Source: a virus
Reading direction: 5' to 3' (one strand)
Virus record (IMG/VR): IMGVR_UViG_3300033153_008827
Span: 1-37,139 of that record
Length of the DNA stretch: 37,139 nt
The notes beneath the pieces were generated by a model that did no database searches, was not told where the DNA came from, and saw nothing but the letters and a program-made list of their open reading frames with translations. The first letter of the stretch is position 1; every line of letters begins with the position of its first letter. A program made the translations under genes and the position numbers. Below are positions 11,611 through 29,743 of this stretch, one piece after another.

Positions 11611-14600
11611 ATTGAAATCTCCGAAAAATTAAATCCTGTTTGATGATAATGGCCATATTGTGCAATCTTAATTGTATCCGCTGTGGGGTATTCAGATTTT
11701 AGAACTGTAAAATGATGTCCACTATCAGGCAAGTTTTCTAAAAAGCTGCCTGATAGTTTTACTCCTCCACCCCAAATTTGATACATCCACTCATTAGTAT
11801 CCCCCCAATAAGGAGCCGAGTCTCCTGAAATCCAAATTGAATCTAGTCTTGTTCTTCTAATCCAATGAACTGTTACTCCAGTGCTTGTATATACAGCTTT
11901 ATAAATATTTGGATAGAATGGCTTAATGCCACAATCAGTAACAGCAGCTATATCTAATATACTTTCTTCTAAGTCAGCCCCATCAGAAACTACTTTGTAT
12001 TTTATATCAACATCTTGATCTGTTAAGCCTAATTGTATTCTATTGCTAGTGGCATCGGTTATTAAAGAGGCATCAATGATAAATAGTTTTGCGCCAATAT
12101 CTGTGCCAGAGACTGAATTTTCTGTTCCTAAGACTCCACGTAAAATTCCAGTTAGTTTATATGTAGTTGAATCTATTACTTCTCTATTTTTAAATCTTAT
12201 ACATTCAACTGAGCCATCTGCTCTTTCAATTATGCCAAGATTTTTTCCACCTAAAACTTCTTCTTCTGAATAAGATTGCAAAGTAGCAGTTGTAGTAACT
12301 GTTAATTCAGTAGTTTCATCCCATTGTACTCTGTGCGTATTTGGCAATTCTGTTGTTATTTCGCAAATAATTGATGGTGAGGAAAATGAAGAAACATTTT
12401 CATATGTTAATCCATCATCTTTAGATACATAAATATCACCAGGTAATTCTGCAAAAATTTGTGGCCCAAAGTAATTATATGTATAAAGAAAGGGGGGAGC
12501 TTCGACAGCATATGTTGTATTTCTAATAATTGGTTCTATGCCTGGTGGACCAATATCTCCATCATCTCCTTGTTCTCCTGGCGCTAATGGAATATAGTCA
12601 AGATCATATGCTTGATCTAAAAATATATCTGCACCATATGTATGCGCCTTAAATGTTATAATCCCATTAACAACATAATCTTTGGACTTAATTTTAATTA
12701 AATATTCCTTGCCAGCAATAGTAATTCTACATTTTGTTGTTGGCTGTAAATTATGATATGCGTGCGGCAATTTGAATTCAATCATATATCTACCACGCCA
12801 AGCAATTTGTAGGGATTTATCCGCTATACTTTGCGCCTTATCAAGATAAAACCCTAGAGGCATTTTTGTTCCAGTTTCTTTGTCACTTCCTATTACTTGC
12901 CTTGTTGATCTTGCAAGTCCTGATTCAAGATTGCTATCCATTCTAAGATATTCAATCTCAACAGCCTTGGCAATTTCATTTTCAAAGATTCTATCTATCT
13001 CTGGTTCACCAATTAAATCATCTTCTGGAATAACAGTTATTGGATAATCACCATCTTGTATAAAATGAATTTGGCCACCAGCTTCATAGCTATCAAAGAA
13101 ATATGCCTTTCTTAATGTTGTAATTGCGCTTCTTGCATCTATTTTAGAAGATAAAGTAAAAGACCAAACTTCATCATTTAAATTGTCTGTATTTGCTTGG
13201 ATATCTGTTAAGCCAGCTGTCATACTTAAATCTTTTACAACATCTGCTAATGGGATACCATCATAAATAAAGCCATTTGGATTTAGGCCAATATTATAAA
13301 CTTTATTGCAGTAATTAAAAAATCCATGGATACAAGATGGTGGATATATAGACTGATCTCCAGATACAGCAATTTGATCATAATCCAATTCTGCTATTGG
13401 AGTTGTAATGTCACCAACAGTAAAAACAAGAAATTTATCGCCAGCTGTATTTATTCCAATTATTAAACTTTCATGTAAAGCGCAAATTACAGAAACTCCC
13501 ATTGTTGCCTTATAATTCACATAAATAGTTGGAGCATCTTCTAATTGTATATCAGGATAAATATACATCGTGCCTTCAGCGTTAAGTGCGGATGCTCCTA
13601 GTACCATAATGCAAGGGGATGATAATCCTCCAAACAACAAATATGAATTGTGAGTTGGGATGGCTACATCTGTATATAATGGATCAGGCAAAATAGAGTC
13701 CCCAGCTGTCCATGTTGCCTTAGTAAGAAAAATATCTGTTGTTTCCAAAACAGTTTTTTCTAATACTGCATAATACATAACATTATCAGTATATGGGTTA
13801 TAATATGATCTTGGATTTACTAAAATATTTTCTGACAATATAGGATCTGGGGCGCCAACAAGAAGATTCTCTTCTCCACCAAATGGCATTCTAAGCCAGG
13901 TATGGTGTACCATCCCATATTCTTCATAAAAAGTATTTCCACTATCAGTATCATAAACTCCAACAGTAAAGCCCTGAAATCCATTTGATGCTGCCCTTCT
14001 TTCTGTTATGCTTCCACCGGAAGAGAAACGGGAATCAGAGCTACTTAAAGTATATGTTTCATCACCTATAAAATCATTTGCATAAACATATTTCAGCTCA
14101 GTTGGGCCAACTGGATCCATATACCCAACAAGAATATTTGTTCCATCAAATGTCACTCCCCTTGGACTAGTGGCAGCTGGCAATTTCCCACGCAATGCTA
14201 TATTTACTGCGTTGGTAGGAGTTAATCCTTCCGCTGTGGCTATGCCTTCAAATTCAACTTTAAAAGCATACATCCTATTATCTGAAAGAGTTAAGTTTTC
14301 AAATACAATATATGCAACATCTCTATATGCTGGAGTTTCATCTGCACCAGCAGCATGACTAACAATAGTAGGGTCTGGCATTTGATCATCAGTGCCTAGA
14401 TACATCGTCATGTGTTTATCCCTAAACTTATTTGATGCTGCTATAGAATTAGAATCTGTAGCAGTAATATCATATTTAATTTTGCCATCTAGCCATACTT
14501 TCCGTATAGCTTTTATTGGGCCAGATGCTACTGATAATGCAAAGGTTGCTACTGCGTATTCAACTGTTGCATCTCCTCCTCCTTTACCTCCAACATCTTC

Positions 14601-14846
14601 ATCTCTATATTTCATTGGAGCAGCCCAAATAACTTGTCCAGCAGATGTACCAGATCCATATGCTTTTATTATTGGGGTACCATGCTTAGATCCTGTTATC
14701 TCAACTTCTCCAGCACTGTTTGCATATTCTGGCCTCATCAACCAAGATGCTGCTGCACTTAATGCCATGGAAATTAATACATTTGCTATTGCTGCTGTTG
14801 TTGCAGTAAATGTATATCCAGCAACTACTGCTCCTGCTACTGCCAT
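11607..14846 (-). CDS. J-like / GTA-type central tail tip protein
   Basis: The 1079-residue protein has an N-terminal hydrophobic glycine/alanine-rich start (residues 1-38). Around residue 530 (GIPLADVVKDLSMTAGL) it enters the Phage-tail_3 type region, with ARSAITTLRKAYFFDSYEAGGQIHF and AKAVEIEYLRMDSN. After that comes a short collagen-like PGEQGDDGDIGPPG near 760. The C-terminus carries the IIERADGSVECIRF, LRGVLGTE and HWIRRTRLDSIW segments seen in gene-transfer-agent and lambda J-like proteins. It should form the tail tip that meets the receptor. Residues of about 227-525 are an extra beta-rich region (SPRGVTFDGTNILVGY and similar strands) that may be a propeller insert. It starts at the last base of the NlpC gene stop. 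Confidence 0.85.
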   Translation of the reverse strand: MAVAGAVVAGYTFTATTAAIANVLISMALSAAASWLMRPEYANSAGEVEITGSKHGTPIIKAYGSGTSAGQVIWAAPMKYRDEDVGGKGGGDATVEYAVATFALSVASGPIKAIRKVWLDGKIKYDITATDSNSIAASNKFRDKHMTMYLGTDDQMPDPTIVSHAAGADETPAYRDVAYIVFENLTLSDNRMYAFKVEFEGIATAEGLTPTNAVNIALRGKLPAATSPRGVTFDGTNILVGYMDPVGPTELKYVYANDFIGDETYTLSSSDSRFSSGGSITERRAASNGFQGFTVGVYDTDSGNTFYEEYGMVHHTWLRMPFGGEENLLVGAPDPILSENILVNPRSYYNPYTDNVMYYAVLEKTVLETTDIFLTKATWTAGDSILPDPLYTDVAIPTHNSYLLFGGLSSPCIMVLGASALNAEGTMYIYPDIQLEDAPTIYVNYKATMGVSVICALHESLIIGINTAGDKFLVFTVGDITTPIAELDYDQIAVSGDQSIYPPSCIHGFFNYCNKVYNIGLNPNGFIYDGIPLADVVKDLSMTAGLTDIQANTDNLNDEVWSFTLSSKIDARSAITTLRKAYFFDSYEAGGQIHFIQDGDYPITVIPEDDLIGEPEIDRIFENEIAKAVEIEYLRMDSNLESGLARSTRQVIGSDKETGTKMPLGFYLDKAQSIADKSLQIAWRGRYMIEFKLPHAYHNLQPTTKCRITIAGKEYLIKIKSKDYVVNGIITFKAHTYGADIFLDQAYDLDYIPLAPGEQGDDGDIGPPGIEPIIRNTTYAVEAPPFLYTYNYFGPQIFAELPGDIYVSKDDGLTYENVSSFSSPSIICEITTELPNTHRVQWDETTELTVTTTATLQSYSEEEVLGGKNLGIIERADGSVECIRFKNREVIDSTTYKLTGILRGVLGTENSVSGTDIGAKLFIIDASLITDATSNRIQLGLTDQDVDIKYKVVSDGADLEESILDIAAVTDCGIKPFYPNIYKAVYTSTGVTVHWIRRTRLDSIWISGDSAPYWGDTNEWMYQIWGGGVKLSGSFLENLPDSGHHFTVLKSEYPTADTIKIAQYGHYHQTGFNFSEISI

Positions 14847-15283
14847 TAGATTTTCTCCACGTTATTCCAAATAATGCGCCAATAGGAATGGATCCTTCTT
14901 TCCCATTTATAATTTAGCGCGTGTTCTGTTACCCAAGTAGCTCCTGCATGTGCATGTATCATTCCATTCTCTGAAATAATAGCTATATGCATTGGATATC
15001 CTATAAAATTCATTAGCATTAGATCGCCAGGCTCTGATTCTTCTTTACTTATCTTTTCCAACATATGCTCTCGTAGGAGAACGCCCTTAAAAAGATTATC
15101 GCGGGGATTTACCGAGTAATTTAAAACTCCCGGTTCTAAATTATAACCAAGTTGTTTCCCTGCATATATAACTAATCCCAAACAGTCTAAGCCATACTTA
15201 GTTCTTCCTTGGTGTACAAATCTAGTGCACCTAAGTTCCCTTGCAGTCTCAACTAATTTAATTCTTATAGCTTTTTCTGACAT
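14846..15283 (-). CDS. NlpC/P60-family tail peptidase (lambda K-like)
   Basis: The 145-residue protein has the catalytic cysteine in LDCLGLVIYAG and the catalytic histidine in MHIAIISENGMIHAH, in the spacing of phage NlpC/P60 enzymes. PGDLMLM precedes the histidine, as is usual. The family cuts peptidoglycan peptides. In tails it sits at the tip and helps DNA entry or tail assembly. AGGAGA precedes ATG, and the start overlaps the DUF2163 gene end by 26 bases. Its place between DUF2163 and J-like genes is canonical. Confidence 0.88.
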   Translation of the reverse strand: MSEKAIRIKLVETARELRCTRFVHQGRTKYGLDCLGLVIYAGKQLGYNLEPGVLNYSVNPRDNLFKGVLLREHMLEKISKEESEPGDLMLMNFIGYPMHIAIISENGMIHAHAGATWVTEHALNYKWERRIHSYWRIIWNNVEKI

Positions 15284-16073
15284 AAGAGTCTCCTGGCAAA
15301 TCTGGCATTCCTCTGAAGTTTACTATATTACTAAAGCCTATACAAGTAGATTTTAATTTATCACAGCCTTCTACAAGATGAAAGGTATCGCCTACATGAA
15401 TAGAGTATGATGCTGGTTCAAATAATCTAAAGTTCCCATTTTCATCTGACTGTGCTACTTCAGATTCACCATTGTCATTATTCCCAGATTTCCAGATAAC
15501 ATATCCATATTTAAAGAAATTATCTGTTTCTGTAATAGCAGATGCTTCAAAATATAACTTATCAATATTTGCAGCAGTTACTATTCCAGACCTTGTATAT
15601 GTAGCAATATCTAATCCACACTTAGCATCACAGAATGTAGCCTTACAGGTGCGAGAAATAAGCTCAACTACTGGGTTTTGCAATACTTGAGAAAGGCTGC
15701 GGAATTCTGCCACATATCTATTATTAAACATCTGGCATTGCCCCCAGTAGCCAGAAAGAATAGTCTTTACAACAGTATCTGTATCAGAGTCATATAGCAT
15801 CCATTCCAAAAACGCATTATCAAAAACTCCATTCTCTATAAGTGATCTATTAACACCTATGGATGAAAGGAAGCCTTCAACTTCAGAATTGCCAGGGGCT
15901 AAATCATTATCAGTATCAAGGTTGGATGGAGTATATCCAAGAGAAACTTTATATTCAATTCCTCCAGTAACAATATCTTCATCTCTATCTGTTGCTCCAA
16001 AAGGATCAATGCCAAATTTAGCATCTGGAGTTATTTTAAGCAAAGAGTGGAAACTAATTGTTTGATCAATCAC
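15258..16073 (-). CDS. DUF2163 / BR0599-type tail tip protein (lambda L-like)
   Basis: The 271-residue protein has the cysteine pattern of this family: RTCKATFCDAKCG near residues 140-152, EGCDKLKSTC near 235-245, and the ending NFRGMPDLPGDSYV. The DUF2163 family overlaps in position with lambda gpL, which binds an iron-sulphur cluster; the cysteines here fit a similar role. The start is GTG at 16073, with AGAGGT upstream, inside the end of the DUF2460 gene. Confidence 0.87.
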   Translation of the reverse strand: MIDQTISFHSLLKITPDAKFGIDPFGATDRDEDIVTGGIEYKVSLGYTPSNLDTDNDLAPGNSEVEGFLSSIGVNRSLIENGVFDNAFLEWMLYDSDTDTVVKTILSGYWGQCQMFNNRYVAEFRSLSQVLQNPVVELISRTCKATFCDAKCGLDIATYTRSGIVTAANIDKLYFEASAITETDNFFKYGYVIWKSGNNDNGESEVAQSDENGNFRLFEPASYSIHVGDTFHLVEGCDKLKSTCIGFSNIVNFRGMPDLPGDSYVRKSYKN

Positions 16074-16689
16074 TTGGGATTACCTCTAAAAGACTAAGGC
16101 CAGCTACTTTACCAACAGGAACATCATCTGCTTTATTGCCAACTATTTCAATAGTAATAGGATCATCTTTAAACCGCACCGGAACATAAAATTCAAAACC
16201 ACAAGTTACTACTGTAGGCAAAGTAGTAAAAGTTAAAATGCCTAGAGTGTAATCAATAGTATATGACTGATCTGTTGCGACTATTAATGTTCCTTCTATT
16301 GGCCGATAAATCCTTCTATAAAATTCTCTTGAGGCAATACTATATAATTTAGTAATTGGATATTCAAGAGGATTATCTTCAGATGGCTTTAAGACTTGAT
16401 CACTTACAGATATAGTATCATCTACTGGACAACTTTTAAAATCTGCCCAATCCCGAAACAAAAATCCTTTAGCTGGTCCATATGTATAATGGAATAGCTG
16501 CATATATCTTTGCTCAATATCTGGAAGCTCTAATACTGGAGTATCAACAGTATATTCATGCCTAGGCCACTTCCATCTTTTATCCGCTAGGGTGAACCCA
16601 CTCTGTAGCCTGATAAGATCAGTGCTATATTGAGGAGTTATAGAATTATCTGTAGATGTTACATCATCTATTAGTACATTAATAATCAT
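16066..16689 (-). CDS. DUF2460 distal tail protein (canonical copy)
   Basis: I place the start at 16689, where ATGA overlaps the preceding stop. The longer frame from 16845 reads through the previous gene in another frame. The 207-residue product has the family marks: DLIRLQSGFTLADKRWKWPRHEYTV near the start, then FHYTYGPAKGFLFRDWADFK, then a beta-rich C-terminus with PVRFKDDPI. DUF2460 proteins lie just before DUF2163 genes in gene-transfer-agent-like tails and form the distal tail ring. Three longer relatives occur upstream in the triplicated cassette. Confidence 0.85.
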   Translation of the reverse strand: MIINVLIDDVTSTDNSITPQYSTDLIRLQSGFTLADKRWKWPRHEYTVDTPVLELPDIEQRYMQLFHYTYGPAKGFLFRDWADFKSCPVDDTISVSDQVLKPSEDNPLEYPITKLYSIASREFYRRIYRPIEGTLIVATDQSYTIDYTLGILTFTTLPTVVTCGFEFYVPVRFKDDPITIEIVGNKADDVPVGKVAGLSLLEVIPSD

Positions 16690-17678
16690 TCTAATGTCAC
16701 CGCAAAACCAGAAACTTTTTGTTTTGGTTGAATGAAAAGATATACTTGCCCAGTTGGCATACAGCCAGAAAAGTCTGCTGCTGCTCCACTTACTTGTGCT
16801 AATGCTTGGCAATCTCTTTCTGAAGATCCAATTAAAGAAACCCAAATATCAAATGTATCTCCAGCATCATCAAATGAAGTAATTGTAATCTCTGTTGTAA
16901 CTACATTATCTAATGGAGCAGTAAATTCATAAAGGCAAATTTCATAAGTTTCAGTTATTCCTTTATAAAATGTAGCAGGGATAGATATATCTTGGGCAAC
17001 TTCGCCAAGATGCACAAAGACATCATCCTTAGGAGGATCATATATTGGCAGCTCCCCACCAACTGTTTCTCCTTCATATTGAAGCTGTAGCCTATTAATA
17101 TGAGACATTCCATATGCCATAGGATTTAATTCAGACTCAAGCTCATCAACTGGTGTATCATATTCTGTACTCCATCTATCTAGCTGGCTACGATATTTCA
17201 TAGTAGTGCCAACTTTATAAATTATTGTATTCTTAGAATAGCCACCAATAGTCATATCTCGCATATCATCCAATCTTAAATATGGTTTTTCTCCTACTCC
17301 AAGATCAGTAATTGTTATGCCAGGAATTGTAGGGTCATACCACCAAAGATAGATATTGTCTTGATACTGATATACAATTAATGGTCTACCAAGCTGATCC
17401 CATGAAAGGCCAATATATGTTATATGTGTCTGAGTAAAAACCAACTCTTTATTTTCATATTCTCCATCTTTATATAAATAGACATAGCCAGTTTCATATT
17501 CCGCTACGACTTTCCATAGATAATATCTGAATCCCTTTGATACATCTTCTCTATTTATTGGTCCATATTCTTTATCCTTTAATTTTATGCTGCTTATATT
17601 TGCATAATATGGATTATTATGTGGCCTAATAAATCTGCTTGGAACTGGTTCGCTAGACCAGGTAATTGTAATAGCCAT
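16686..17678 (-). CDS. Tail protein of unknown role, beta-rich, 330 residues
   Basis: The protein starts at a TAATG overlap with the preceding gene. It has repeated tryptophan-rich strands (GLSWDQLGRPLIVYQYQDNIYLWWYDP) and KYRSQLDRWSTEYDTP, a pattern I associate with conserved hypothetical phage tail proteins located before DUF2460 genes. The C-terminal 90 residues (TEITITSFDDAGDTFDIWVS) look like a separate beta-sandwich. It could be a tip or side protein. No specific function is known to me. Confidence 0.6.
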   Translation of the reverse strand: MAITITWSSEPVPSRFIRPHNNPYYANISSIKLKDKEYGPINREDVSKGFRYYLWKVVAEYETGYVYLYKDGEYENKELVFTQTHITYIGLSWDQLGRPLIVYQYQDNIYLWWYDPTIPGITITDLGVGEKPYLRLDDMRDMTIGGYSKNTIIYKVGTTMKYRSQLDRWSTEYDTPVDELESELNPMAYGMSHINRLQLQYEGETVGGELPIYDPPKDDVFVHLGEVAQDISIPATFYKGITETYEICLYEFTAPLDNVVTTEITITSFDDAGDTFDIWVSLIGSSERDCQALAQVSGAAADFSGCMPTGQVYLFIQPKQKVSGFAVTLE

Positions 17679-18595
17679 TATGCTCTACTCCAAGAAACAG
17701 AAAAAGTGATGTCCAAAGCATCTTCATCTGTCTTAGGAATTTTTGGAGAAAAGTTGCATTGAAAGCCAGCACTAGCTGATGGGTTTGGTGAATATGTTAT
17801 GCAAAATGTAATTGACCCAATTCCTGATGTAAATATCGCATTGGTTGGAACCCAATTAAAATTTGTTAGTGATTCATATGATCCAGGAACATAAGTTAAA
17901 TATGAATACCCATTCGCATTATCATCTGCTCCACCTGGGTAGCTGTCTTGGTCTGCTAATACATCCGTTTCTAACGCGGAAGCTGTACTTTGAAAAACTT
18001 CTTGATCTGGAGACCAATAATTATAGGTTTCTGCATTGTCAACCCCTATTGCTCTAATAGTATAATCATAGTCATCACTTTCTTCTGTAGTAATAGTAGC
18101 TGAATAGTCTGTATTTGGGACAACTTTTCTTTGTTCATATACAATAGTTAAGGATTCATCTTCAAGAACTACAACTGATGTAATCTCATCTTCAAAATCA
18201 GTAACAAGTGCTCTGCTAAACATGCCACTTGTTCCAAAGAAGCCAACTTCAGAAACAGTTCCAATTATTTGTCCAGGGGCATAAGTAAATACTCTTGTAT
18301 AATAAACAATCCATTGCCCTCCAGCGCCACTATTATGAGAAAATGTACTTGATATAGGTGTGGCAGCTCCAGTAATTTCTGCTTCAAGGTCTGTATCAGC
18401 AAAAGTTGGAGCTGTAGTACCACTGCCTACTTTTGGGCCACTACCAGCATCGGTCATTGAATAGTTGCCTAATGCATCCATACCAACATCAGTTATAAGA
18501 TTATGGAAATCTTCTCTTGTTTTCAAACTTCCATCTGATCTTGTTACTAATGCAGTAATATGACCAGCTAATTTAATTTCTGTTTTTAATAACAT
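17678..18595 (-). CDS. Fourth, shorter relative of the cassette Ig-tipped tail protein
   Basis: The 305-residue protein follows the same plan as the products of 18596, 20873 and 23171. It begins with an AGHI strand, then DFHNLITDVGMD, VGSGTTAP, the central YDYTIRAIG strand and the late PKIPKTDEDALDITFSVSW. It stops where the others continue into the ~105-residue SwmB-like domain. Identity with the other three is visibly lower than among them, so it is an older relative or the founder. AGGTGA lies five bases before ATG, directly after the previous stop. Probably a tail tip or fibre component. Confidence 0.65.
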   Translation of the reverse strand: MLLKTEIKLAGHITALVTRSDGSLKTREDFHNLITDVGMDALGNYSMTDAGSGPKVGSGTTAPTFADTDLEAEITGAATPISSTFSHNSGAGGQWIVYYTRVFTYAPGQIIGTVSEVGFFGTSGMFSRALVTDFEDEITSVVVLEDESLTIVYEQRKVVPNTDYSATITTEESDDYDYTIRAIGVDNAETYNYWSPDQEVFQSTASALETDVLADQDSYPGGADDNANGYSYLTYVPGSYESLTNFNWVPTNAIFTSGIGSITFCITYSPNPSASAGFQCNFSPKIPKTDEDALDITFSVSWSRA

Positions 18596-19825
18596 TTAAG
18601 TCACCTCATTAATTATAACAGCATCTGTTATGTCTTCTACTTCAGCCCCATCGCTTCCTGTTAAATTACCAGTAGACTTTACATAACTAAATGTAACATC
18701 ATCTCCATTAGTAATTGCATCAGTTACTGTTATTGTTAATACCATTCCAGAAGTGCTCACTCCAGTTACTATATTATTAGTACCACTGTTTATATCTACT
18801 GTAAACGCAGCAATAGTTGGACTAGCTGGCAAAAGAGCACCATTAAATGTTAATACTAAGGTAGTAGTCGCTCCATCAACAACTTTACCTCTTGAATATT
18901 CTGGTTCGTGTCTTGCTAAGGTTGATCCAATAGTAAGAGTTAATTCATTTGTATCAGTTTTTGGTATATTTGTAAAAAATGGAGTTCCTAAATCAACTTG
19001 AGCTACAAATTTTACTTGAAAACACATATATGGATATCCATATCCAAAAACAACTACAGCTATTCCACCAGTATAATTTCCACCCCCCACATTCCAGAAA
19101 AAGGAAGATTCTCTATAATAACTATCTTGGGAATAAATGGAAAATTCTATACCATTATATAGACTATTTGTTCCAATTGGGTATTCATCTTCACTTGTTA
19201 AGTCATTAGTTTCATATACCCATCCATACCTTAATGCACCATCGCGATTAGGAGCAAATCCAGCATCTTCTCTTTTACAAGGACGCAAAGTATAATCATA
19301 AGTTACACCAGATATATCTATTGCCCCTGTAACATCTCCTGTTGGGGGATAAGTTCTTATTTCATAAGTTACTCTTAAATATTCATCATCTGCTAAAGTT
19401 ATTGTTGTAACATCTCCATCAATATCTTTTATTAAAGTTCTTGACCAAGCAACATCATTATAAGCAAAGCAGATTTCTGCTAATGCATATCCATCTATAT
19501 TACTTGCTGGAGTAAATTGATAAACTCTTTCATATCCATAATAATCTCCAGGGTCATTCCATCCCCATGATTGAGATAGACTGGTTCCGGTCCATCCAAC
19601 ACTTGTCATTGTTGAGAATGTGTCTGCTTCTGTTGGAATAGCATTATTTGTTCCAACATAGCATCTTCCTGATAAACCAGTTGGTGAATATGGCTGGCTT
19701 ACAATATAATTTAATCCTTCATTAGTTATAACATTGCTAAATTTAGATGAAAAGCGCACTTTCATATCAGAAGTCAGAATTTCTAATTTTATATGTCCAC
19801 TAATTCTTTCTTTCATTTTAATCAT
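18596..19825 (-). CDS. Cassette C: Ig-tipped tail protein, 409 residues
   Basis: Residues of about 1-300 form a beta-rich body starting ISGHIKLEILTSD, with FSNVITNEGLNYI, RCYVGTNNAIPTEADTFSTM and YDYTLRP. The C-terminal ~105 residues (RGKVVDGATTTLVLTFNG to ITDAVIINEVT) are an SwmB/Ig-like domain also found on the tail tube protein and on the other two cassette copies. The ATG overlaps the stop of its partner (ATGA), so both are made together. A receptor-facing or decoration role at the tail tip is inferred from position and domain type. Confidence 0.7.
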   Translation of the reverse strand: MIKMKERISGHIKLEILTSDMKVRFSSKFSNVITNEGLNYIVSQPYSPTGLSGRCYVGTNNAIPTEADTFSTMTSVGWTGTSLSQSWGWNDPGDYYGYERVYQFTPASNIDGYALAEICFAYNDVAWSRTLIKDIDGDVTTITLADDEYLRVTYEIRTYPPTGDVTGAIDISGVTYDYTLRPCKREDAGFAPNRDGALRYGWVYETNDLTSEDEYPIGTNSLYNGIEFSIYSQDSYYRESSFFWNVGGGNYTGGIAVVVFGYGYPYMCFQVKFVAQVDLGTPFFTNIPKTDTNELTLTIGSTLARHEPEYSRGKVVDGATTTLVLTFNGALLPASPTIAAFTVDINSGTNNIVTGVSTSGMVLTITVTDAITNGDDVTFSYVKSTGNLTGSDGAEVEDITDAVIINEVT

Positions 19826-20865
19826 TCTAATACTCCTGAAATCATAATTGCATTAAGTACATCATAGCGTTCAATATCATCATCATGGATTGTTAAATCA
19901 TGAAAGATTACTTGATCATCAATAATTCCACTTATCATTATTGCATTTTCAACATCATATGATTCATCTCCAGCATCAAGATATTTAACAACAGATTCTA
20001 TAACTCCAGAAATCATCTCTGCATTTTCAACATCATATGAATTAAAATCTTCAGCTTTAAGAATAGTATTTCTAAATGACATTTCATTTATAGATGCTGC
20101 TTGTTCTATTATATCAGTTGGTGAAAGAACACCTTTAATAACAGAAATGCTAGAATTAGATGTTGTTGAATCTTGTACATTAATTGTATATGGAACGCTT
20201 GTAATATAATGAATATTATCTTCTAATTCAAACCGATAAGGCAACTTCATTTGTTCTAATATGCAATTTATTTCTCCTGCTTCTGACCAATTATAAAGTT
20301 CTGTTATTTTATCATCTACAAATCTAACAGCAATATTATATTGGAACTTGGCCTCTGGAGCTACAGGCTCTGTATCAAAGAATACCTTTCCATTTATCTT
20401 ATCAACTTCATAGTTATAAACTGTTGAGCCTTCATCTTGAATTACAATCGTGCTTATAATAACAAATCTACAATGATAAGCAAAATCTCTTGTTAAAGTT
20501 GCATCATCTAAATCAATTACAGAGACAGATTTGAAAAAATACCATTCTAATGGGTCTACTGGATCTTGTAACATTGGAGAAAATGATTCTTCACCTATTC
20601 CGCTGCGCCAGTCTGTTGGATCCTTCATTAGAAAGCCTGCATATGATCCTTCACAAACATGCAATAGAGCAATTACTTTTTCTAAATCATCTATGTTTCT
20701 AATGCTAGTGCCAATATTAAAAGACCTATTATGCGTAAGCCATTCTATTCCTCGCTGTTCTTTTCCAGCATCTGTTCCAACAATTTGAGTCTTATACTCT
20801 TTTGATGCCTTAGCACCAATTGCTATACAAAGAGGGAACTCTACATCAGAATATATTTTTATCAT
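19822..20865 (-). CDS. Cassette C: DUF2460-like protein with C-terminal YDVxNAxMISG repeats
   Basis: Residues of about 1-230 match DUF2460: TDAGKEQRGIEWLTHNRSFNIGT, a helix with LLHVCEGSYAGFLMKDPTDWR, then LEWYFFKS and a beta region with AVRFVDDKITELYNW. The last ~110 residues are a tail of short repeats. Three of them read YDVENAEMISG, YDVENAIMISG and YDVLNAIMISG. Two are encoded by an identical 20-base direct repeat (19943-19962 and 20021-20040), which points to recent copying within the gene. No strong ribosome binding site is visible before ATG. Confidence 0.75.
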   Translation of the reverse strand: MIKIYSDVEFPLCIAIGAKASKEYKTQIVGTDAGKEQRGIEWLTHNRSFNIGTSIRNIDDLEKVIALLHVCEGSYAGFLMKDPTDWRSGIGEESFSPMLQDPVDPLEWYFFKSVSVIDLDDATLTRDFAYHCRFVIISTIVIQDEGSTVYNYEVDKINGKVFFDTEPVAPEAKFQYNIAVRFVDDKITELYNWSEAGEINCILEQMKLPYRFELEDNIHYITSVPYTINVQDSTTSNSSISVIKGVLSPTDIIEQAASINEMSFRNTILKAEDFNSYDVENAEMISGVIESVVKYLDAGDESYDVENAIMISGIIDDQVIFHDLTIHDDDIERYDVLNAIMISGVLE

Positions 20866-20872
20866 AACTTAA

Positions 20873-22123
20873 TCATGTTACATTGTTAGTTACTATTTCA
20901 TCAGTTATATTTTCTACTTCAGCATCATCAGACCCAACTAAATTTCCAGTTGCTTTTACATAACTAAATGTAATTGTATCTCCATTCACAATTGCATCTG
21001 TTACTGTAATAGTTAATGTAGTTCCAGATGTAGTAACATTTGTAACGACATTATCAGTCCCACTATTTATATCTACTGTAAATGCAACAATAGTTGGACT
21101 AGCTGGCAAAACTTCATTATCAAATTTAAGAATTAGGCTAGTAGTTGCTCCATCTTCTACACTACCATAGGCATATTCAGGCTGTCTTCTAGCAATATAT
21201 GCACCAATTGTTAGTGAAAGTGTTTTTGTTGCATCTTTTGGAATATTTGTACCAAATGTTGCATCTGGGGTTCCTTGCTTAATAAATTTTACTTGATAAT
21301 TATAATATGGATAACTATGTGCAAACAATATAACTCTTATTCCACCATCAACATTTGCTTTTGTCGGAATAAATATAAAAGTTGACTCTCTATAATAACT
21401 ATCTTGTGTATATATAGACTGTGAATTTGGTGCAGATAGATAATCTCCATAAGATACTGATTCATCAGTTTCTGCAACTAATTCTTGAGTAGCTGATGAT
21501 GAAACATTAATTGCACGTATTGGTCCAGAATGTGATGGCGTAAAATAATTTATGTTATCTTTTAGATATGGCCTTAAAGTATAATCAAAATCGTCAGCAA
21601 CTCCAGCAATTGTTATCGTTCCTGTATTATCACCAGTTGGCCAATAAAGTCTCAATTCATAAATTATATATAAATATTCATCAGAATTAAGTGTAATAGT
21701 TGTTGGCTGGCCATCATTGTTTTTAATTAATGTTCGTGACCATGCAACATCATAGTTAGAAAACATAATTTCTGATAATGCATATCCATCAATATTTTGA
21801 GAAGGAGTAAATCTATGTTCTCTTTTATACCAATAATATCCATTAATAGAATCTGGCTCATGCTCAGATGTTGATGCACCAATTCTTGTTCCAACAGATT
21901 CCATAGTTGAAAAAGTATCTGTTTCTAAAGGTGCAGTTCCATTTGTTCCAACATAGCAGTAACCTGCAAGAGTGGTTGGGGTAGTTGCGCTTCCCATTAC
22001 ATAATTAAAACCTTCATTTAAAATTAGATTATTAAAGCTAGATTCAAAACGAATATCTCCATTTGCTTTTATAATTTTTAAATTTATGCGCCCACTTACT
22101 GTTTGTTTTAAATTAATTTTCAT
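20873..22123 (-). CDS. Cassette B: Ig-tipped tail protein, 416 residues
   Basis: This is the second copy of the Ig-tipped protein, with VSGRINLKIIKANGD at the start, FNNLILNEGFNYV, YCYVGTNGTAPLETDTFSTM and YDVAWSRTLIKN. The C-terminal SwmB-like domain is nearly the same as in cassette A. DNA at 20920-20970 and 23220-23270 shares long identical stretches, far closer than the variable bodies. The middle (about residues 190-290) differs most from the other copies. It overlaps its partner's stop (ATGA) and should be part of the tail tip. Confidence 0.7.
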   Translation of the reverse strand: MKINLKQTVSGRINLKIIKANGDIRFESSFNNLILNEGFNYVMGSATTPTTLAGYCYVGTNGTAPLETDTFSTMESVGTRIGASTSEHEPDSINGYYWYKREHRFTPSQNIDGYALSEIMFSNYDVAWSRTLIKNNDGQPTTITLNSDEYLYIIYELRLYWPTGDNTGTITIAGVADDFDYTLRPYLKDNINYFTPSHSGPIRAINVSSSATQELVAETDESVSYGDYLSAPNSQSIYTQDSYYRESTFIFIPTKANVDGGIRVILFAHSYPYYNYQVKFIKQGTPDATFGTNIPKDATKTLSLTIGAYIARRQPEYAYGSVEDGATTSLILKFDNEVLPASPTIVAFTVDINSGTDNVVTNVTTSGTTLTITVTDAIVNGDTITFSYVKATGNLVGSDDAEVENITDEIVTNNVT

Positions 22124-23163
22124 GATAATTCTCCAGAGACCATCATTGGCAAAGGTACAAAATATTTTTCAATATCATTATTGTGAATCGTTAAATCATG
22201 AAATAATACTACTACTTCTATTATTCCAGATTTCATTTCTGTTAATGGTACAAAATAAACATCTATTCCAGCATCATGTTCATTCATTAATGATATTATT
22301 TCACCAGAAATCATGTCAGGCTTTGGAACAAAATATGAAGTATCAGAAAACTTATGAATTACTTTGACTGATAATGATAAGCTATCTATTTCTGTTGAAT
22401 ATCCAGTAGAATCTATTGGGCTCAATGTTCCTGAAATTCTATTAATCAATGCAGAAGTATTAATCCTATCAGGTTGATTAATTGTATATGGAACACTTGT
22501 AATATAGTGAATGTTATCTTCTAATTCAAATCTATATGGCAGTTTTACTTGTTCTAACTTACAAGTAATTGTTCCTGCACCTGACCAGGTGTAAAGTTCA
22601 GTTACTTTATCATCTAAAAATCTAACTGCAATTTTATATTGAAATTTTGCTTTTGGTGCAACAGGCTCTACATCAAAAAAGACTTTTCCATTTTGTTTTT
22701 CAATTGAATAATTATATACTGTTGCCCCTTCATCTTGGATAATAACAGTGCTAGAAATAATGAATCTACAATGATAAGCATAATCCCTTATTAAAATTGT
22801 GTCCTCTAAGTCTGTAACTGAAGCAGATTTAAAGAAATACCATTCAAGAGGATTTACTGGATCCTGTAGCATAGGAGAAAAAGTTTCTTCTCCAACCCCA
22901 CTGCGATAATCAGTAGGATCAGTCATTAAAAATCCTGCGTATGATCCCTCACAGACATGAAACAAGGTTATTACTTTCTCTAGTTCATCAATGTCTCTAA
23001 TACCAGTCCCAATATCAAATGATCTATTATGAGTTAGCCATTCTGCTCCACGCTGTTCTTTACCACTATTTGTAGTAATAATTTGGGTGCTATAGAACTT
23101 ATTTGTAGTTGCTCCAAGAGCAATACAAAGAGGAAGTTCTATATCAGAATATATTTTAATCAT
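22120..23163 (-). CDS. Cassette B: DUF2460-like protein with C-terminal YFVPxxxMxSG repeats
   Basis: The first ~235 residues align closely with the products of 19822 and 24412 (GKEQRGAEWLTHNRSFDIGTG, HVCEGSYAGFLM, DPVNPLEWYFFKS, YRFELEDNIHYITSVPYTIN). The C-terminal ~110 residues diverge. Here the three repeats read YFVPKPDMISG, YFVPLTEMKSG and YFVPLPMMVSG, all with YFVP, which neither other copy uses. It probably forms part of a distal tail ring or a hub for the Ig-tipped partner encoded right after it. Confidence 0.75.
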   Translation of the reverse strand: MIKIYSDIELPLCIALGATTNKFYSTQIITTNSGKEQRGAEWLTHNRSFDIGTGIRDIDELEKVITLFHVCEGSYAGFLMTDPTDYRSGVGEETFSPMLQDPVNPLEWYFFKSASVTDLEDTILIRDYAYHCRFIISSTVIIQDEGATVYNYSIEKQNGKVFFDVEPVAPKAKFQYKIAVRFLDDKVTELYTWSGAGTITCKLEQVKLPYRFELEDNIHYITSVPYTINQPDRINTSALINRISGTLSPIDSTGYSTEIDSLSLSVKVIHKFSDTSYFVPKPDMISGEIISLMNEHDAGIDVYFVPLTEMKSGIIEVVVLFHDLTIHNNDIEKYFVPLPMMVSGELS

Positions 23164-23170
23164 AACTTAA

Positions 23171-24412
23171 TTATGTTACATTATTAACTACTGTTGCATC
23201 AGTTATATTTTCAACTTCAGCATCATCAGATCCAACTAAATTTCCAGTTGCTTTTACATAACTAAATGTAATAGTATCTCCATTCACAATTGCATCTGTT
23301 ACTGTAATAGTCAATGTAGTTCCAGAAGTAGTCACATTGGTTACTACATTATTAGTACCAGAATTTATATCTACTGTAAAAGCAGCAATAGTTGGACTAG
23401 CTGGTAAAACTTCATTATCAAACTTTAATATTAAACTTGTCGTTGCCCCATCATTAACAGCTCCTCTAGCATATTCTGGTTCCCTTCTAGCTATATATCC
23501 ACCAACAGTTATGCTAAATGTTTTAGTATCATCTTTGGGAATATTTGTTCCATAAGTTGGATCAGGATCTCCTTGTTTTACAAATAAAGCTTGAAAACAA
23601 TAATATGGATAGCCACCAGCAAAAATTAAAACTGAAATTCCACCAGAAATATTTGCTTCTGATGGAGTCCAAATGAATGTTGACCTTCTATAATAACTAT
23701 CCTGATTATAATCAGCTAAAGAGTTTGCAGAGCTTCTATATCCTGTATATGAAATAGCCTCATCAGATTCTGCAACAAGAACTGCAGTTGATGTATTTGC
23801 TACTCCAGCACCATTAATTACACAACGAGGCAAGTATAAAAAACCTTGATTTGCACGGCGATATGGACGAACAGTATAATCATATGTATCACCACCTATA
23901 TCTGCCACTCCTGTTGTATCTCCAGTTGGTGGATAGACTCTTAGTTCATATACTAATTTTAAATATTCATCATCTGCTAAAGTTATTGTTGTTGGATTTC
24001 CATTAGCATCTTTTATTAAAGTTCTTGACCAAGCAACAAAATTATAATAACTAAATACTATTTCTGCTAATGCATGGCCATCTATATTATTATTTGGGGT
24101 GAAATAATATTGTCTAATAGCATAAGCATAGTCTCCAGAGCTATTCCAATTATAGCTTGAAGGACCACTAACCATATTTGTTCCAACCAATTCTGCCGTT
24201 GCAAATGTATCTGATTCTGTTGGTTCTGTAATTTTTGTGCCAACATTGCAATGAGCTGAAGTATTAAGAGGAGACCAATTTGCTGACATAACATAATTAA
24301 GTCCTTCATTTAATACTAAGTTATTAAATTCAGACCTAAAACGAACATCGCCATTAGCAGTTATAATTTCAAGTTTTATATGCCCAGAAATTTTTGTTGG
24401 AATTTTAATCAT
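23171..24412 (-). CDS. Cassette A: Ig-tipped tail protein, 413 residues
   Basis: First copy in transcription order. It starts KISGHIKLEIITANGD, then FNNLVLNEGLNYV, CNVGTKITEPTESDTFATAE, AWSRTLIKDANGNPTTITL and YDYTVRPYRR. The SwmB-like domain spans about residues 310-413. As in the other copies, the C-terminal domain is much more conserved at DNA level than the body, which suggests gene conversion between copies. TAATG couples it to its partner. Inferred role: receptor-facing or decoration protein at the tail tip. Confidence 0.7.
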   Translation of the reverse strand: MIKIPTKISGHIKLEIITANGDVRFRSEFNNLVLNEGLNYVMSANWSPLNTSAHCNVGTKITEPTESDTFATAELVGTNMVSGPSSYNWNSSGDYAYAIRQYYFTPNNNIDGHALAEIVFSYYNFVAWSRTLIKDANGNPTTITLADDEYLKLVYELRVYPPTGDTTGVADIGGDTYDYTVRPYRRANQGFLYLPRCVINGAGVANTSTAVLVAESDEAISYTGYRSSANSLADYNQDSYYRRSTFIWTPSEANISGGISVLIFAGGYPYYCFQALFVKQGDPDPTYGTNIPKDDTKTFSITVGGYIARREPEYARGAVNDGATTSLILKFDNEVLPASPTIAAFTVDINSGTNNVVTNVTTSGTTLTITVTDAIVNGDTITFSYVKATGNLVGSDDAEVENITDATVVNNVT

Positions 24413-25446
24413 TAATATAAATCTCCTGAAATAATAGTCATTGATGGAATATAATATTTATCAATATCATCAGTATTAATTTGTAAATCATGAATTATTA
24501 CTGTAACTTTTATATCTCCAGAAACAATATCCATATTAAATATTGCATATGATTCTGGATCAACTTCTGTTTCAATTATAACAGAATCCATTGTGCCAGA
24601 TACAATTTCTATATTAGGGATTGCATATGAATTTTCATTTTCTTTATTAAAAGTAACATCTCTGAATGCCATTTCAGCTATTGATGCTGAACTACTTATG
24701 CTATCTTGTGGAGACAAAACACCTTTGATTGAAGAAATATTTGCACTTAAATCTAAAGAATTACGTTCATTAATTGTATATGGTACACTTGTTATATAAT
24801 GAATATTGTCTTCAAGTTCAAATCTATATACTTGTTCTAATCTACATTGAATAGATCCAGCTCCTGCCCAATTATATAACTCATCAATTGAATCATTTAA
24901 AAATCTAACAGCTATATTATATTCAAAACTTGCCTCTGGTGCAGTTGGCTCTGTATCAAAAAAGACCTTGCCATTTATTTTATCTAAATCATAATTATAA
25001 ACAATTGATCCTTGATCTTTTATTATAACAGTACTAGATACAACAAATCTACAATGATATGCATCAGTTCTAATAAGTGGACTATCATCTAAATCAATTA
25101 CATTAGCTGATTTAAAAAAGTACCATTCCAAGGGATCAACAGGATCTTGAACCATTGGTTGATAATCAACATTTCCTACTCCGCTGCGCCAGTCAGTAAA
25201 GTCTCTCATCAAGAATCCAGCATATGACCCTTCACATGCATGGAATATATTTACCATCTCATCAAGATTTTCCCATCTCTTGATTCCTGTTCCTATATCA
25301 AATGTTCTAAGATGAGTTAGCCATTCAATCCCTCTTTGTTCTTTGCCAACATCTGTCCTAACAACTTGAGTTTTATACTCCTTAATTGCTTTAGCTCCAA
25401 GTGCTATGCACTCAGATAGTAAAATATCATGATATATTTTAATCAT
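24412..25446 (-). CDS. Cassette A: DUF2460-like protein with C-terminal YAIxNxxIVSG repeats
   Basis: This 344-residue copy directly follows the tape measure gene. The DUF2460-like body is conserved (GKEQRGIEWLTHLRTFDIGTG, ACEGSYAGFLMRDFTDWRSG, DPLEWYFFKS). It lacks three residues (KLP) present in the other copies just before YRFELED. The C-terminal repeats read YAIPNIEIVSG, YAIFNMDIVSG and YYIPSMTIISG. Position after the tape measure fits a distal tail protein role. Confidence 0.75.
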   Translation of the reverse strand: MIKIYHDILLSECIALGAKAIKEYKTQVVRTDVGKEQRGIEWLTHLRTFDIGTGIKRWENLDEMVNIFHACEGSYAGFLMRDFTDWRSGVGNVDYQPMVQDPVDPLEWYFFKSANVIDLDDSPLIRTDAYHCRFVVSSTVIIKDQGSIVYNYDLDKINGKVFFDTEPTAPEASFEYNIAVRFLNDSIDELYNWAGAGSIQCRLEQVYRFELEDNIHYITSVPYTINERNSLDLSANISSIKGVLSPQDSISSSASIAEMAFRDVTFNKENENSYAIPNIEIVSGTMDSVIIETEVDPESYAIFNMDIVSGDIKVTVIIHDLQINTDDIDKYYIPSMTIISGDLY

Positions 25447-25456
25447 TATATCTTAT

Positions 25457-28400
25457 TTAATTCTTGAAGCCTTCCTTAGCACCATTTGCATTCATTACTT
25501 TAGTGTGTAATTGAGCCATAGATTTTTTATCTATATATCCTTTGCCTTCTTCATTTGCTGCAATAGTAATATTAAATATTGTTGAATGAGCAGCTTGAGA
25601 CTCTACACCAAGCTTTCCATTCCTGCCTCTTTTAAGTGGCATTATGGCTTCTGGTCCAGCTTCTCCTGCTAATCCAGCACCATTGGCCATTGGGAATAGA
25701 ACAGGTTTATTTATAACTCCACCTCTAGCAAATGGAACTACATTCCCTTTATTAAATACCCCACCTTTTTCAAAACCAGTTCCTATCCCTGCGGCACTTA
25801 TTGAGTCAAAATCTGCAGACATGAAATTTCCCATTTCCTTACTAGATCCAGCAGCAGCACTCCCCGTGCTATTAAATGAACTTATTGATGATTCTATTGC
25901 CTTTAATATAAGCATTTTAATTATCATCTTTGATATATCAGAAAGAATACTTGCTGCCATTTCCTTAAATGATACTGCTCCAGTAGTTGCAAATTCTACA
26001 ATTGAATCCGCTGCGCCTTCTGCAAAGTCTCCTATTGCTTGTCCCATTACATCAGTCCAGATTACAGCCCATTCTTCAGTTTTTATTATCCCAGTATCTA
26101 ACGACTCATTTATTGCTTTTAGTCTTTCATTAAACTCATCACTTGACATTAAGTGCTGGACTTCTATCAAATCAGTATATGCCTGCTCTTGCTTCTTAAT
26201 CTTATCAGTCATTGTTTCAAATGAACCTCGTACAGCAGCAAGTTTTGCTTGTTCTGCTGCTATTTTTATTGCTTCCTTTTGAGCAGCAGCAGTTGCTCTA
26301 ATTGCTGCTACTCCTTCTGCATATCTTTGATTAAGAGTTTCAAGATCAGTAGCAGTATCCTTCATAACCAAATTCCAAAGCTTTTGCTCTTGCTTGGTTG
26401 CTGCCATTTCTATTCTATATAGTTTTTGTGCCGTTGTATCTAAGCCTAATATGTGAAGTTCATCTTTTTGTGCTCTAATTAAATCATCTATTGCTTTAAG
26501 ATTATCTTTAAGTGCCTTTGGCTTTGTCTTGTTTTGTCTTTTCTTTGCTTCATCAGCATTTTTATACAGCCCCATTAAAGTTTTAACTGCTTCATGCTCA
26601 GGAGTAAGGCCATGCTTAATCATAAATCTGATTCCTTTCATTTGGTCAGAAGTTGTCTTAATGCCAAGGAGCTTTGCCTGTCTCAGCGCCTCTTCTTCAT
26701 CAACAAGTGGATAAAGTTGTTTGGCATAATCCTCAGTCATATGTCCTAATTTCTGTGCTGCCCATGCAGCCTCAAAATCTGCTTGTTGTTTTTCTGCAAC
26801 AGCAATTGCATTTGCTTTTATAAAATTGGTTTGTTCATTAACTGATTTGCTGACAGTTGCTATTGCTTGATTAAACATTTTAACATGAGTATCATTCCCC
26901 TGTGCTAAGGCCTCATCTCTTAATTTCTTTAAACTTGCAAGTGCCATTGCTGATTTACTAAGTTCTGGGGAAAATTGCTGAAGTACACTTACTGCTGTAT
27001 TATATAATCCAATTGATTCCCTAACTGTTGCATTAAATGTAGCCTGGCTCCCCTTTGCTTTTTTTAGCGATTGTGTTAAAACTATTATCTCTGCATCATA
27101 ATTAGAAATTGGTGGGGCTTTATAATTTACCATAGCCTGCATAGTTTCTTCATGGGCTTGCTTTAAATTTCTATAATGGATAATGCCGCCAGCAATTATT
27201 CCGAAAAATGCAACAAAAGGTGCAGCAATAACAGCGGCTGTTGCAGCAACAGAAGCAAGAGCAGCACGAGCAGCAAATATTGCAACTCTAATTGCTATCA
27301 TCTTATCTTTAAAAGCAAGGAATGCCTTTCCAGCCGCCCATATTCCTACTGTTATTTTTGCTAATGGACTAAAGAGCCACTTGAATCCTTTTAAAATAAG
27401 ACCAAAAGGTTTTATAAGTGCAGCTGCTGTAATGCCTAGAAATAATAAATTGGATGTTAATCCCATAAATGATTCCTTCATTGCCATGGCTTTTTCACCC
27501 AAACTTGTTGCTGTCTTATCAATCTTTACGAGTGATTCATTAGCGCCATCAGCAGCCTCTGATACAGCAGTTAATTCACTATTTACAGAATTTGCTTCGG
27601 ATGCAACACTTTCAAATGATTTGCCAACATTCTTATTGGATGATGTCAAAACTTTTACAAAACTATCTACTTCAAAAAATACTCCAACAAGTTTAGTTAA
27701 TGCATTGGCCAACATCGTTAGTCCTTTTACAAAAGGCATTAGCAGAGTAACAAGGGCTGGAGCAAATGCTAATTTTAATGCATCTAATGAATTTGCCAAT
27801 TCAGCAAAAGCAGCAGTTGGCTTTTTAAGTGCTTGCTCTAGTATATCACCACCATAAGTTTCATTTATTTTCTTAACAAATTTTGGCATAAACTTTGATG
27901 TCTTTAGAGTTCCAGAGGCAACTAATTTAAAAAACTCCCCCATTTTCTCTTTGCCAAGATCCATTGCTTCTGCTGCTAATTCCATCGAGCCTGGCAAATA
28001 CTGCCCCATCTGCCTACGCAATTCCTCCATTGATACAAATCCTTTTGATGTCATTTGCTCAATTGATAAGAATAAACCATGCATTTGTTCTTTATTAAGA
28101 TTCATTATTCGACCAACTTTAGCAAATGCTCTAAATTGGTGCTCTGCAACCTTTATTGACCCTTCAGCCCTACCACTAGCAAGAACAACCGCAGCAGAGA
28201 ATTTTGAATAAGCTTTTGCAACACTATCTATATGTACTCTATAATCTTTTGCTATTCTTGCTGAAACAACCATTTGATCATTTGCATGATTTATTTTCTC
28301 AGTCATTGTTCCACTTGCATCTGCCGTAACCATCATTGCATTACGGAAGCCAAGGAATTCAGATTGAAGTCTTGCCAAGGCAACAGGATTTATTGCATCC

Positions 28401-29743
28401 CATAACCGATATAAATAGTTAGCAAATTTCATTCTAATAATGAATTCCATGGACTTTCTAAGTCTTTTTAGACCACCAGCAAATTTATTTGTTTTAGCAG
28501 CTGTTTTATCAAGATCAATTGCTAATTGTCCTGCAGTTGTTGATAGCTCCTTTGCAACTGGAACTGCACCACCTAGTGCTTTATTAAGCCCAGTAACATC
28601 AATAGCAGCAGACTTTGCCTTTGCAGAATATGCATTAAGAGAGCCATTTTTGACAGATTCTACTGCAGGCTTTACTCCAGTCAATGTTACATTAAGATTT
28701 GTTGTATCTACTGCAGCAGTTCTTGCTTTTTCAGAATATATATTAAGGGAACCATATGCTCCAGAAAATGCAACTTTTGCAGCTTCTGTTTCTGGGGTTA
28801 TTCCAGCAAGGGACATATTTAAACTAGCAGTATCTACAGCAGCCTTTTTTGCACTAGCTGAATATATATTTAGTGTGCCATAAGCACCAGCAAAGGCATC
28901 TTTTACAGCCTCAACTACTGGTTTTGCCCCATTCATTTGTCTATTTAAACCTATCGTATCAACTGCAGCATTTTTAGCTCTAGTTGAATATCCATCAAGG
29001 GCACCATATGCTGTAACAACAGCATAATGTGAAGATTTTGCTGATGATGTAACTCCACCTAATGCATTATTTAGATTAGTCGTATCAGCTGTAGCAGCTT
29101 TGGCTTTAGTTGAATGAGTTGTTAATGACTTATATGAATCGCCAATTGCATTTGCTTCTTTTTTGGCTTCCTCAGCCAATTTTTGTTCTGCAGCAGCAAA
29201 TTCAATAGCTACATCTTTTGCTTTAGTTGTTGCCCTTGCAACATTTTGTAGCATAATAGCTGCCATAGCCTCCGCTGCTTCGAGCTTTCTCATTGCGCTT
29301 GCTGCTCTAATATACGCAAGCTGAATTTGCTCAGTTGATGCAGTTGCCGATTTAGATATTCTTTTATATGATTCTAAGCTAGTTGATGCAGTAATAATTG
29401 CATTCTTTACCTGAGTTAGCTGCTTTTTAAACTCTGCAATTGATGTGGCTGTTTCTTTTGATGAAAGGCCAGAATCTTTTGTTGCCCTTGTAAATTCTAC
29501 CATTGACTCCCGTAGTTTCACAACCATATTTTTGGAGGATTCAAAAGCACGATTCAGCTTTCCTATTGCGCTTCTAGCAGATGCAGCATTTTTATCACTA
29601 AGGGCTTTTGTATAATCTCTAAATGACTCAGCTAATGCATTTGTCTTTTTAGTTATTTTAGAAAAATCATTGTCTAATTTTTTAAGTTGTGAATCAACGC
29701 TTGATGAATCAAGCGTAATTTTGACACTAATATTATCAGTCAT
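25457..29743 (-). CDS. Tape measure protein
   Basis: The 1428-residue protein sits right after the frameshifted chaperone genes, as tape measures do, and is the longest gene here. The N-terminal 200 residues are coiled coil. Five tandem ~42-residue repeats occupy about 204-407. A tape-measure domain spans about 460-650, with the marker segment GFVSMEELRRQMGQYLPGSM near 570. Hydrophobic segments near 760-785 and 830-860 may insert into the host membrane. The C-terminus has the usual GLAGEAGPEAIMPLKRG. AAGGAA precedes ATG. It sets tail length and is likely injected with the DNA. Confidence 0.93.
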   Translation of the reverse strand: MTDNISVKITLDSSSVDSQLKKLDNDFSKITKKTNALAESFRDYTKALSDKNAASARSAIGKLNRAFESSKNMVVKLRESMVEFTRATKDSGLSSKETATSIAEFKKQLTQVKNAIITASTSLESYKRISKSATASTEQIQLAYIRAASAMRKLEAAEAMAAIMLQNVARATTKAKDVAIEFAAAEQKLAEEAKKEANAIGDSYKSLTTHSTKAKAATADTTNLNNALGGVTSSAKSSHYAVVTAYGALDGYSTRAKNAAVDTIGLNRQMNGAKPVVEAVKDAFAGAYGTLNIYSASAKKAAVDTASLNMSLAGITPETEAAKVAFSGAYGSLNIYSEKARTAAVDTTNLNVTLTGVKPAVESVKNGSLNAYSAKAKSAAIDVTGLNKALGGAVPVAKELSTTAGQLAIDLDKTAAKTNKFAGGLKRLRKSMEFIIRMKFANYLYRLWDAINPVALARLQSEFLGFRNAMMVTADASGTMTEKINHANDQMVVSARIAKDYRVHIDSVAKAYSKFSAAVVLASGRAEGSIKVAEHQFRAFAKVGRIMNLNKEQMHGLFLSIEQMTSKGFVSMEELRRQMGQYLPGSMELAAEAMDLGKEKMGEFFKLVASGTLKTSKFMPKFVKKINETYGGDILEQALKKPTAAFAELANSLDALKLAFAPALVTLLMPFVKGLTMLANALTKLVGVFFEVDSFVKVLTSSNKNVGKSFESVASEANSVNSELTAVSEAADGANESLVKIDKTATSLGEKAMAMKESFMGLTSNLLFLGITAAALIKPFGLILKGFKWLFSPLAKITVGIWAAGKAFLAFKDKMIAIRVAIFAARAALASVAATAAVIAAPFVAFFGIIAGGIIHYRNLKQAHEETMQAMVNYKAPPISNYDAEIIVLTQSLKKAKGSQATFNATVRESIGLYNTAVSVLQQFSPELSKSAMALASLKKLRDEALAQGNDTHVKMFNQAIATVSKSVNEQTNFIKANAIAVAEKQQADFEAAWAAQKLGHMTEDYAKQLYPLVDEEEALRQAKLLGIKTTSDQMKGIRFMIKHGLTPEHEAVKTLMGLYKNADEAKKRQNKTKPKALKDNLKAIDDLIRAQKDELHILGLDTTAQKLYRIEMAATKQEQKLWNLVMKDTATDLETLNQRYAEGVAAIRATAAAQKEAIKIAAEQAKLAAVRGSFETMTDKIKKQEQAYTDLIEVQHLMSSDEFNERLKAINESLDTGIIKTEEWAVIWTDVMGQAIGDFAEGAADSIVEFATTGAVSFKEMAASILSDISKMIIKMLILKAIESSISSFNSTGSAAAGSSKEMGNFMSADFDSISAAGIGTGFEKGGVFNKGNVVPFARGGVINKPVLFPMANGAGLAGEAGPEAIMPLKRGRNGKLGVESQAAHSTIFNITIAANEEGKGYIDKKSMAQLHTKVMNANGAKEGFKN
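28523..29134 (-). repeat. Five tandem ~42-residue repeats inside the tape measure gene
   Basis: Each unit reads roughly Y-G-x-L-x-x-Y-S-x-x-A-K-x-A-A-V-D-T-x-x-L-N. Units start near residues 204, 246, 288, 330 and 368. The first three are exactly 42 residues, the fourth is 38 and the fifth lacks its first two residues. The outer units are the most diverged. The unit is helical and adds length to the tape measure. Confidence 0.85.

Follow-up and report, generated by a model that had tools for sequence, protein, structure and literature searches.

Tandem pairs of distal tail protein and candidate adhesin genes at the tail tip of an uncultivated GTA-type siphophage

Tail-tip proteins are usually single-copy, and duplicated anchors with dedicated adhesins provide a test of how phages gain several receptor-binding proteins. 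In RcGTA and roseophage R4C, the distal tail protein is a single short protein (210-214 aa chains), too short to include a docking arm. Many GTA-like siphophages have a hub gene into which a fibre gene and a partner gene, here designated B and C, are inserted, or a C that is joined to the C-terminal part of the hub; the N-terminal piece of the hub ends in putative docking repeats (loci L009, L051, L053, L076, L080-L082; L047, L052, L057, L060, L064, L067, L072, L086; L093, phage Sonora). The locus described here comes from the 37,139-base record of an uncultivated virus (the window), whose minus strand encodes the tail of a GTA-type siphophage. It shares with RcGTA and R4C the distal tail protein domain, which is found in three proteins designated A1-A3 and, by Pfam family, also in a canonical DUF2460 gene. 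With Stenotrophomonas phage Sonora and loci L009 and L051, it has in common the GTA-type tip genes and a repeat arm directly before B; in those phages, however, the arm is carried by an N-terminal hub fragment homologous to the RcGTA megatron, DUF2460 is single, and B is present once or twice. The reading preferred here, at a probability of about 60%, is that A1-A3 are dedicated anchors that place three related adhesins, B1-B3, on one tail tip, while B4 and C would make up the standard set.

Layout and copy number of the locus

As the original prediction had stated, the tape measure gene is separated from the standard tail-tip genes by three tandem A-B pairs. These are followed by the predicted fourth B relative (B4, 27% identical to B1 and without an Ig tip), the single-copy C gene and the canonical DUF2460 gene, and then by genes for DUF2163, NlpC/P60 and an intact GTA-type hub (Table 1). 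All genes are on the minus strand, and the reading frames of all A and B copies are open. The A and B genes of each pair overlap by 1-4 nt, suggesting coupled translation, the gap between pairs is 7 nt, and DNA repeats recur at a spacing of ~2.28-2.30 kb across the cassettes. The A proteins share 56-65% amino acid identity and B1-B3 share 54-63%, in agreement with the proposed duplication followed by divergence. For the canonical DUF2460 gene, the start is most likely the ATG at 16689 rather than the mechanically assigned TTG at 16845. Glycoside hydrolase is the name given to DUF2460 distal tail proteins by PHROG family phrog_2913 and in several GenBank records; nothing here backs such an activity, and the annotation was set aside as a label.

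Table 1. Genes of the tail-tip region and the tail tube gene in the window
Feature	Coordinates	Strand	Description	Profile evidence
Tail tube protein	30529..32037	-	C-terminal Ig domain related to the B1-B3 tips	PF18906 6e-26; SWM profile E=4e-6
Tape measure protein	25457..29743	-	Directly upstream of A1	PF20155, PF09718
A1	24412..25446	-	DUF2460 distal-tail-protein domain and C-terminal repeat arm, key YAI/YYI..SG	PF09343 E=8.7e-24
B1	23171..24412	-	Fibre/adhesin body (1-310) and Ig-like SWM tip (311-413)	phrog_4176 4e-40; PF13753 2.5e-7
A2	22120..23163	-	DUF2460 anchor and repeat arm, key YFVP..SG	PF09343 7.6e-26
B2	20873..22123	-	Fibre and Ig-like tip	phrog_4176 3e-34; PF13753 1.4e-5, just under cut-off
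A3	19822..20865	-	DUF2460 anchor and repeat arm, key YDVxNA..SG	PF09343 1.2e-25
B3	18596..19825	-	Fibre and Ig-like tip	phrog_4176 9e-43; PF13753 2.4e-6
B4	17678..18595	-	Fibre without Ig tip, 'standard' B adjoining C	phrog_4176 4e-44
C	16686..17678	-	Partner, single copy, after B in nearly all relatives	phrog_4950 9e-21
Canonical DUF2460	16066..16689	-	Distal tail protein without arm	PF09343 9.6e-36; start inferred, overlaps the C stop
DUF2163/BR0599	15258..16073	-	Upper hub protein	PF09931 2e-27, PF09356 8e-20
GTA-type hub	11607..14846	-	Intact hub gene, uninterrupted by B/C	Phage-tail_3; Rcc01698 C-terminal domain

With 35-45% protein divergence between the copies, an assembly artefact or collapse is ruled out. 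Contig L005, a second piece of this virus (99.9% identical over 6.7 kb), agrees, independently containing the tape measure gene, A1, B1 and the start of A2 before it ends. One 48-aa internal repeat distinguishes the tape measure proteins of the two contigs (25457-29743 in the window and L005:5564-9994) and may reflect a natural change in tail length. Three residues (KLP) near residue 207 are missing from A1 of the window and are present in A2, A3 and the A1 of L005 (L005:10001-11044).

The copy number is unusual, as had been supposed. Among 50 distinct related viral records searched whole, often fragments in which copy counts are lower bounds, B is present once in 44 and twice in 6 and DUF2460 is never present more than once, compared with four B and four DUF2460 genes in the window. 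In isolated phages, A1 matches 76 places in 76 records and B1 matches 110 places in 110 records. Two nearby B genes occur in loci L044, L048, L049, L056, L068 and L072, with copies that are often only distantly related. Since both B genes follow one carrier in several other two-B loci, the A3-B3-B4-C portion is similar to an arrangement already known, and what sets the window apart is the two additional A-B cassettes. No isolated phage was matched by megablast of the tail region, searches via the hub or C returned no closer relatives, a search via the carrier of L010 returned only its own contig, and one scan of bacterial genomes found none carrying B. The fibre family, the distal tail protein and the presence of several receptor-binding proteins per virion are of already known kinds; among the sequences searched, the DUF2460 anchor with a putative docking arm, amplified together with its adhesin, was found only here. 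A literature search, with most subscription journals outside its scope, found no paper on the repeat-arm module or on DUF2460 duplication.

Anchors, adhesins and the repeat arm

By profile comparison, each A protein is composed of a DUF2460 distal-tail-protein domain and a C-terminal repeat arm. The domain assignment is based on PF09343 scores of 84.6, 91.3 and 90.6 bits for A1, A2 and A3 against a cut-off of 30.4 (E 9e-24 to 8e-26), and the combined A1-A3 profile matches the distal tail proteins of RcGTA (6tba_6B, 2.4e-13) and R4C (8gtc_G, 6e-10, N-terminal 85 residues), which would place A1-A3 at the distal tail ring. The arm comprises about four short repeats of ~28 aa, with an SGxL-like motif at the very C-terminus, and structure prediction for A reaches a pLDDT of 35.

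The B1-B4 proteins match phrog_4176 (E 3e-34 to 4e-44) over residues ~3-310, nearly the whole body. The Ig-like tip of B1-B3 belongs to the SWM_repeat family PF13753, with scores of 31.2 bits for B1, 28.1 for B3 and 25.7 for B2 against a cut-off of 27, and the B2 tip, just below that cut-off, is 91% identical to the B1 tip. A related domain is present at the C-terminus of the phage's own tail tube protein (E 4e-6), suggesting that the tips were derived from, or have a common source with, the tail tube decoration; the tip was not found in the B proteins of the other loci. An AF2 model of B1 has a mean pLDDT of 79 overall with a good body, and its fold matches chain BD of the HFTV1 tail (Z 16.1 over 229 residues, 3.3 A; next match Z 6.5). 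At 953 residues this chain corresponds by length to gp44 (954 codons), the baseplate hub, which is annotated with a proposed carbohydrate-binding domain. A sequence search of B against solved structures gave no convincing match. Family and predicted fold make B a probable receptor-binding module, and the suggestion that several such modules reside on one tail is likely. In a tree of B proteins, from which B1 was omitted as a duplicate of the L005 copy, B4 joins B2 and B3 on a long branch (support 99/83). No carrier is paired with B4, a point against the reading of dedicated anchors.

The repeat arm of A appears to be of the type found directly upstream of this fibre family elsewhere, a link that the original prediction missed, as it did the separate repeat key of each A. 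A scan with the C family yielded 80 loci, and in nearly all of them repeats of ~28 aa form the end of the ORF directly upstream of B, irrespective of what precedes them in that ORF. The carriers include tail-end proteins, namely hub N-terminal fragments related to the RcGTA megatron (3e-36) and distal tail proteins of the JBD30 type (8vjh, 6e-86; 8rk3_U, 5e-54), as well as a podoviral fibre-like base and a stand-alone repeat protein. The L010 carrier, which had been among the seeds of the DUF2460 profile, was dropped as a DUF2460 protein, with no PF09343 match in L010 and a match of the carrier to phrog_1082. A profile of the terminal repeats of other carriers matched almost only B-upstream ORFs among 4,364 ORFs searched, including ORFs that were not used for training (L010, 1e-8; L055, 2e-17). 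This profile scores A1 of the window poorly (E=0.87); the kinship of the A arm with other arms is based on the reverse search, in which the first 11 non-self matches of the A1-A3 arm profile are all B-upstream ORFs (best 6e-6), and on profile-profile comparison by hhalign, at E 3e-5 compared with 0.45 or worse for the column shuffles listed. The window has the same synteny, with A arms upstream of B1-B3 and C after B4. From this arrangement we infer that the A arm docks B, and we propose a portable adsorption module of tailed phages, amplified in the window and consisting of a carrier ending in ~28-aa docking repeats, the fibre or adhesin B and the partner C. Such a module would plug one fibre family onto a hub, a distal ring or a podoviral base, and its repeat arm would allow adhesins and their anchors to be recognised from sequence.

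Each A arm has a key of its own. The last three units are alike inside each A (YAI/YYI in A1, YFVP in A2 and YDVxNA in A3), with unit identity of 63% within an A compared with 42% between A proteins at the same position, and grouping the units by A is the best of 280 possible groupings, albeit of only nine units. Third codon positions of the units differ little, at 54% identity within an A and 49% between A proteins, so the likeness of the units within an A points to selection on the protein and not to recent copying of DNA. In 37 other carriers, within-carrier unit likeness is 0.35 compared with 0.13 with motif columns masked, a difference reached in 0 of 2000 permutations, although recent repeat duplication may explain the likeness in some of these. 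The simplest reading of the sequences is that the units of one arm share one partner, a different one for each of the three arms, and the choice of partner may thus be encoded in the repeat units.

Divergence of the cassettes and competing explanations

The comparison of dN and dS that had been proposed for the copies separates constrained from variable parts, with the qualification that dS in these pairwise NG86 estimates is near saturation and the ratios are rough. The DUF2460 body of A is constrained (dN 0.12-0.31, dS 1.2-2.3, dN/dS about 0.1-0.2), as is the Ig tip (dN/dS 0.2-0.3). In the A arm, dN is similar to dS (0.57-0.72 and 0.58-0.72), and in residues 41-105 of B it is close to dS (0.72-0.78 and 0.84-0.98), with dN/dS for these two regions near 0.7-1.2. 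The expectation of conserved ends and variable middles is met by B and by the whole cassette; within A, however, it is the C-terminal arm that varies, with 32-42% identity among A1-A3 compared with 63-79% for the remainder of the protein. The cassettes are also mosaic, as 60-site windows depart from a single tree beyond all 2,000 permutations and the favoured pairing varies from A2-A3 in the A body to cassettes 1-3 in B (alignment columns 1280-1500) and cassettes 1-2 at the end of B. As sites along the cassette favour different groupings, exchange between cassettes is indicated, and such exchange appears to maintain similarity in places, above all between the B1 and B2 Ig tips.

In the preferred reading of dedicated anchors, the pair of B and its carrier, here the DUF2460 distal tail protein, would have been duplicated twice in tandem and B would have gained its Ig-like tip. 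Each A would be located at the distal tail ring and, judging from synteny and the per-anchor keys, its repeat arm would hold the B of the same pair in several copies. As B1-B3 diverged mainly in two body regions, one virion would probably display several related but different adhesins at once. The mosaic structure could also point to a standing reservoir, in which one A-B pair is present in virions and the others are recombination donors that switch or update host specificity. Such donors, however, would be expected to decay or to be without the anchor part, whereas all copies here are open and overlapping on one strand of a tightly packed operon with a constrained body. No recombinase or reverse transcriptase was seen among the profiled genes (some small genes lie outside these, and the record is possibly incomplete), and inverted repeats in the window, with 70-86% matches, include no flanking pair and give no sign of switching by inversion. 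A silent reservoir, which had been put forward for this locus, is therefore improbable. Much the same low probability applies to the three pairs being functionally equal and contributing extra subunits or bulk at the tip, for while simple dosage would fit the strongly conserved DUF2460 body and Ig tips and the exchange between copies, the distinct key of each anchor and the parts of the B body where dN approaches dS indicate that partner and ligand surfaces have diverged.

It is also unlikely that the pairs are fixed parts of one machine with stage-specific roles, with A1-A3 forming separate stacked rings or acting at different steps such as reversible binding, irreversible binding and triggering. 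Some phages, JBD30 among them, adsorb in two steps (PMC11445458), and gene order is kept in the one overlapping close contig, L005, as far as that contig goes; against this, A1-A3 and B1-B3 have no distinct domains and one architecture throughout. A more specific arrangement, for which the odds are about one in four, is that A1-A3 co-assemble as a mixed distal ring, e.g., an (A1A2A3)2 pseudo-hexamer, or as stacked rings, with the key-and-lock code of the arms fixing three adhesin positions. If true, this would be a multi-receptor siphophage tip with sequence-coded positions.

Comparison with known systems

Outside the GTA-like phages, a close gene arrangement is that of the phiKMV-like phage MPK7, infection by which needs type IV pili (PMC3795208). 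Its genes 44-46 encode a repeat protein (44), a phrog_4176 B protein (45) and C (46) in the same order, and differ from the window in that MPK7 is a podovirus, the repeats are on a stand-alone 146-aa protein, there is one copy, and B has no Ig tip. In carriers of the JBD30 gp49 type (L024, L055, L066), a distal tail protein directly after the tape measure bears the arm and is followed by B and C, as in the window, but the carrier is larger (phrog_1082) and present in one copy. The fibres of JBD30 itself are gp47 and gp48 (PMC11445458); their candidacy as B homologues found no support, with no PDB sequence match and no entry in the fold-search listing. The HFTV1 baseplate hub gp44, assigned by length, resembles the predicted fold of the B body and differs in belonging to an archaeal virus, where the domain lies within the hub. 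In Ackermannviridae, branched complexes equip a virion with several receptor-binding proteins (PMC11414711), as is likely for the window; those complexes are made of tail spikes and are not built on duplicated distal tail proteins.
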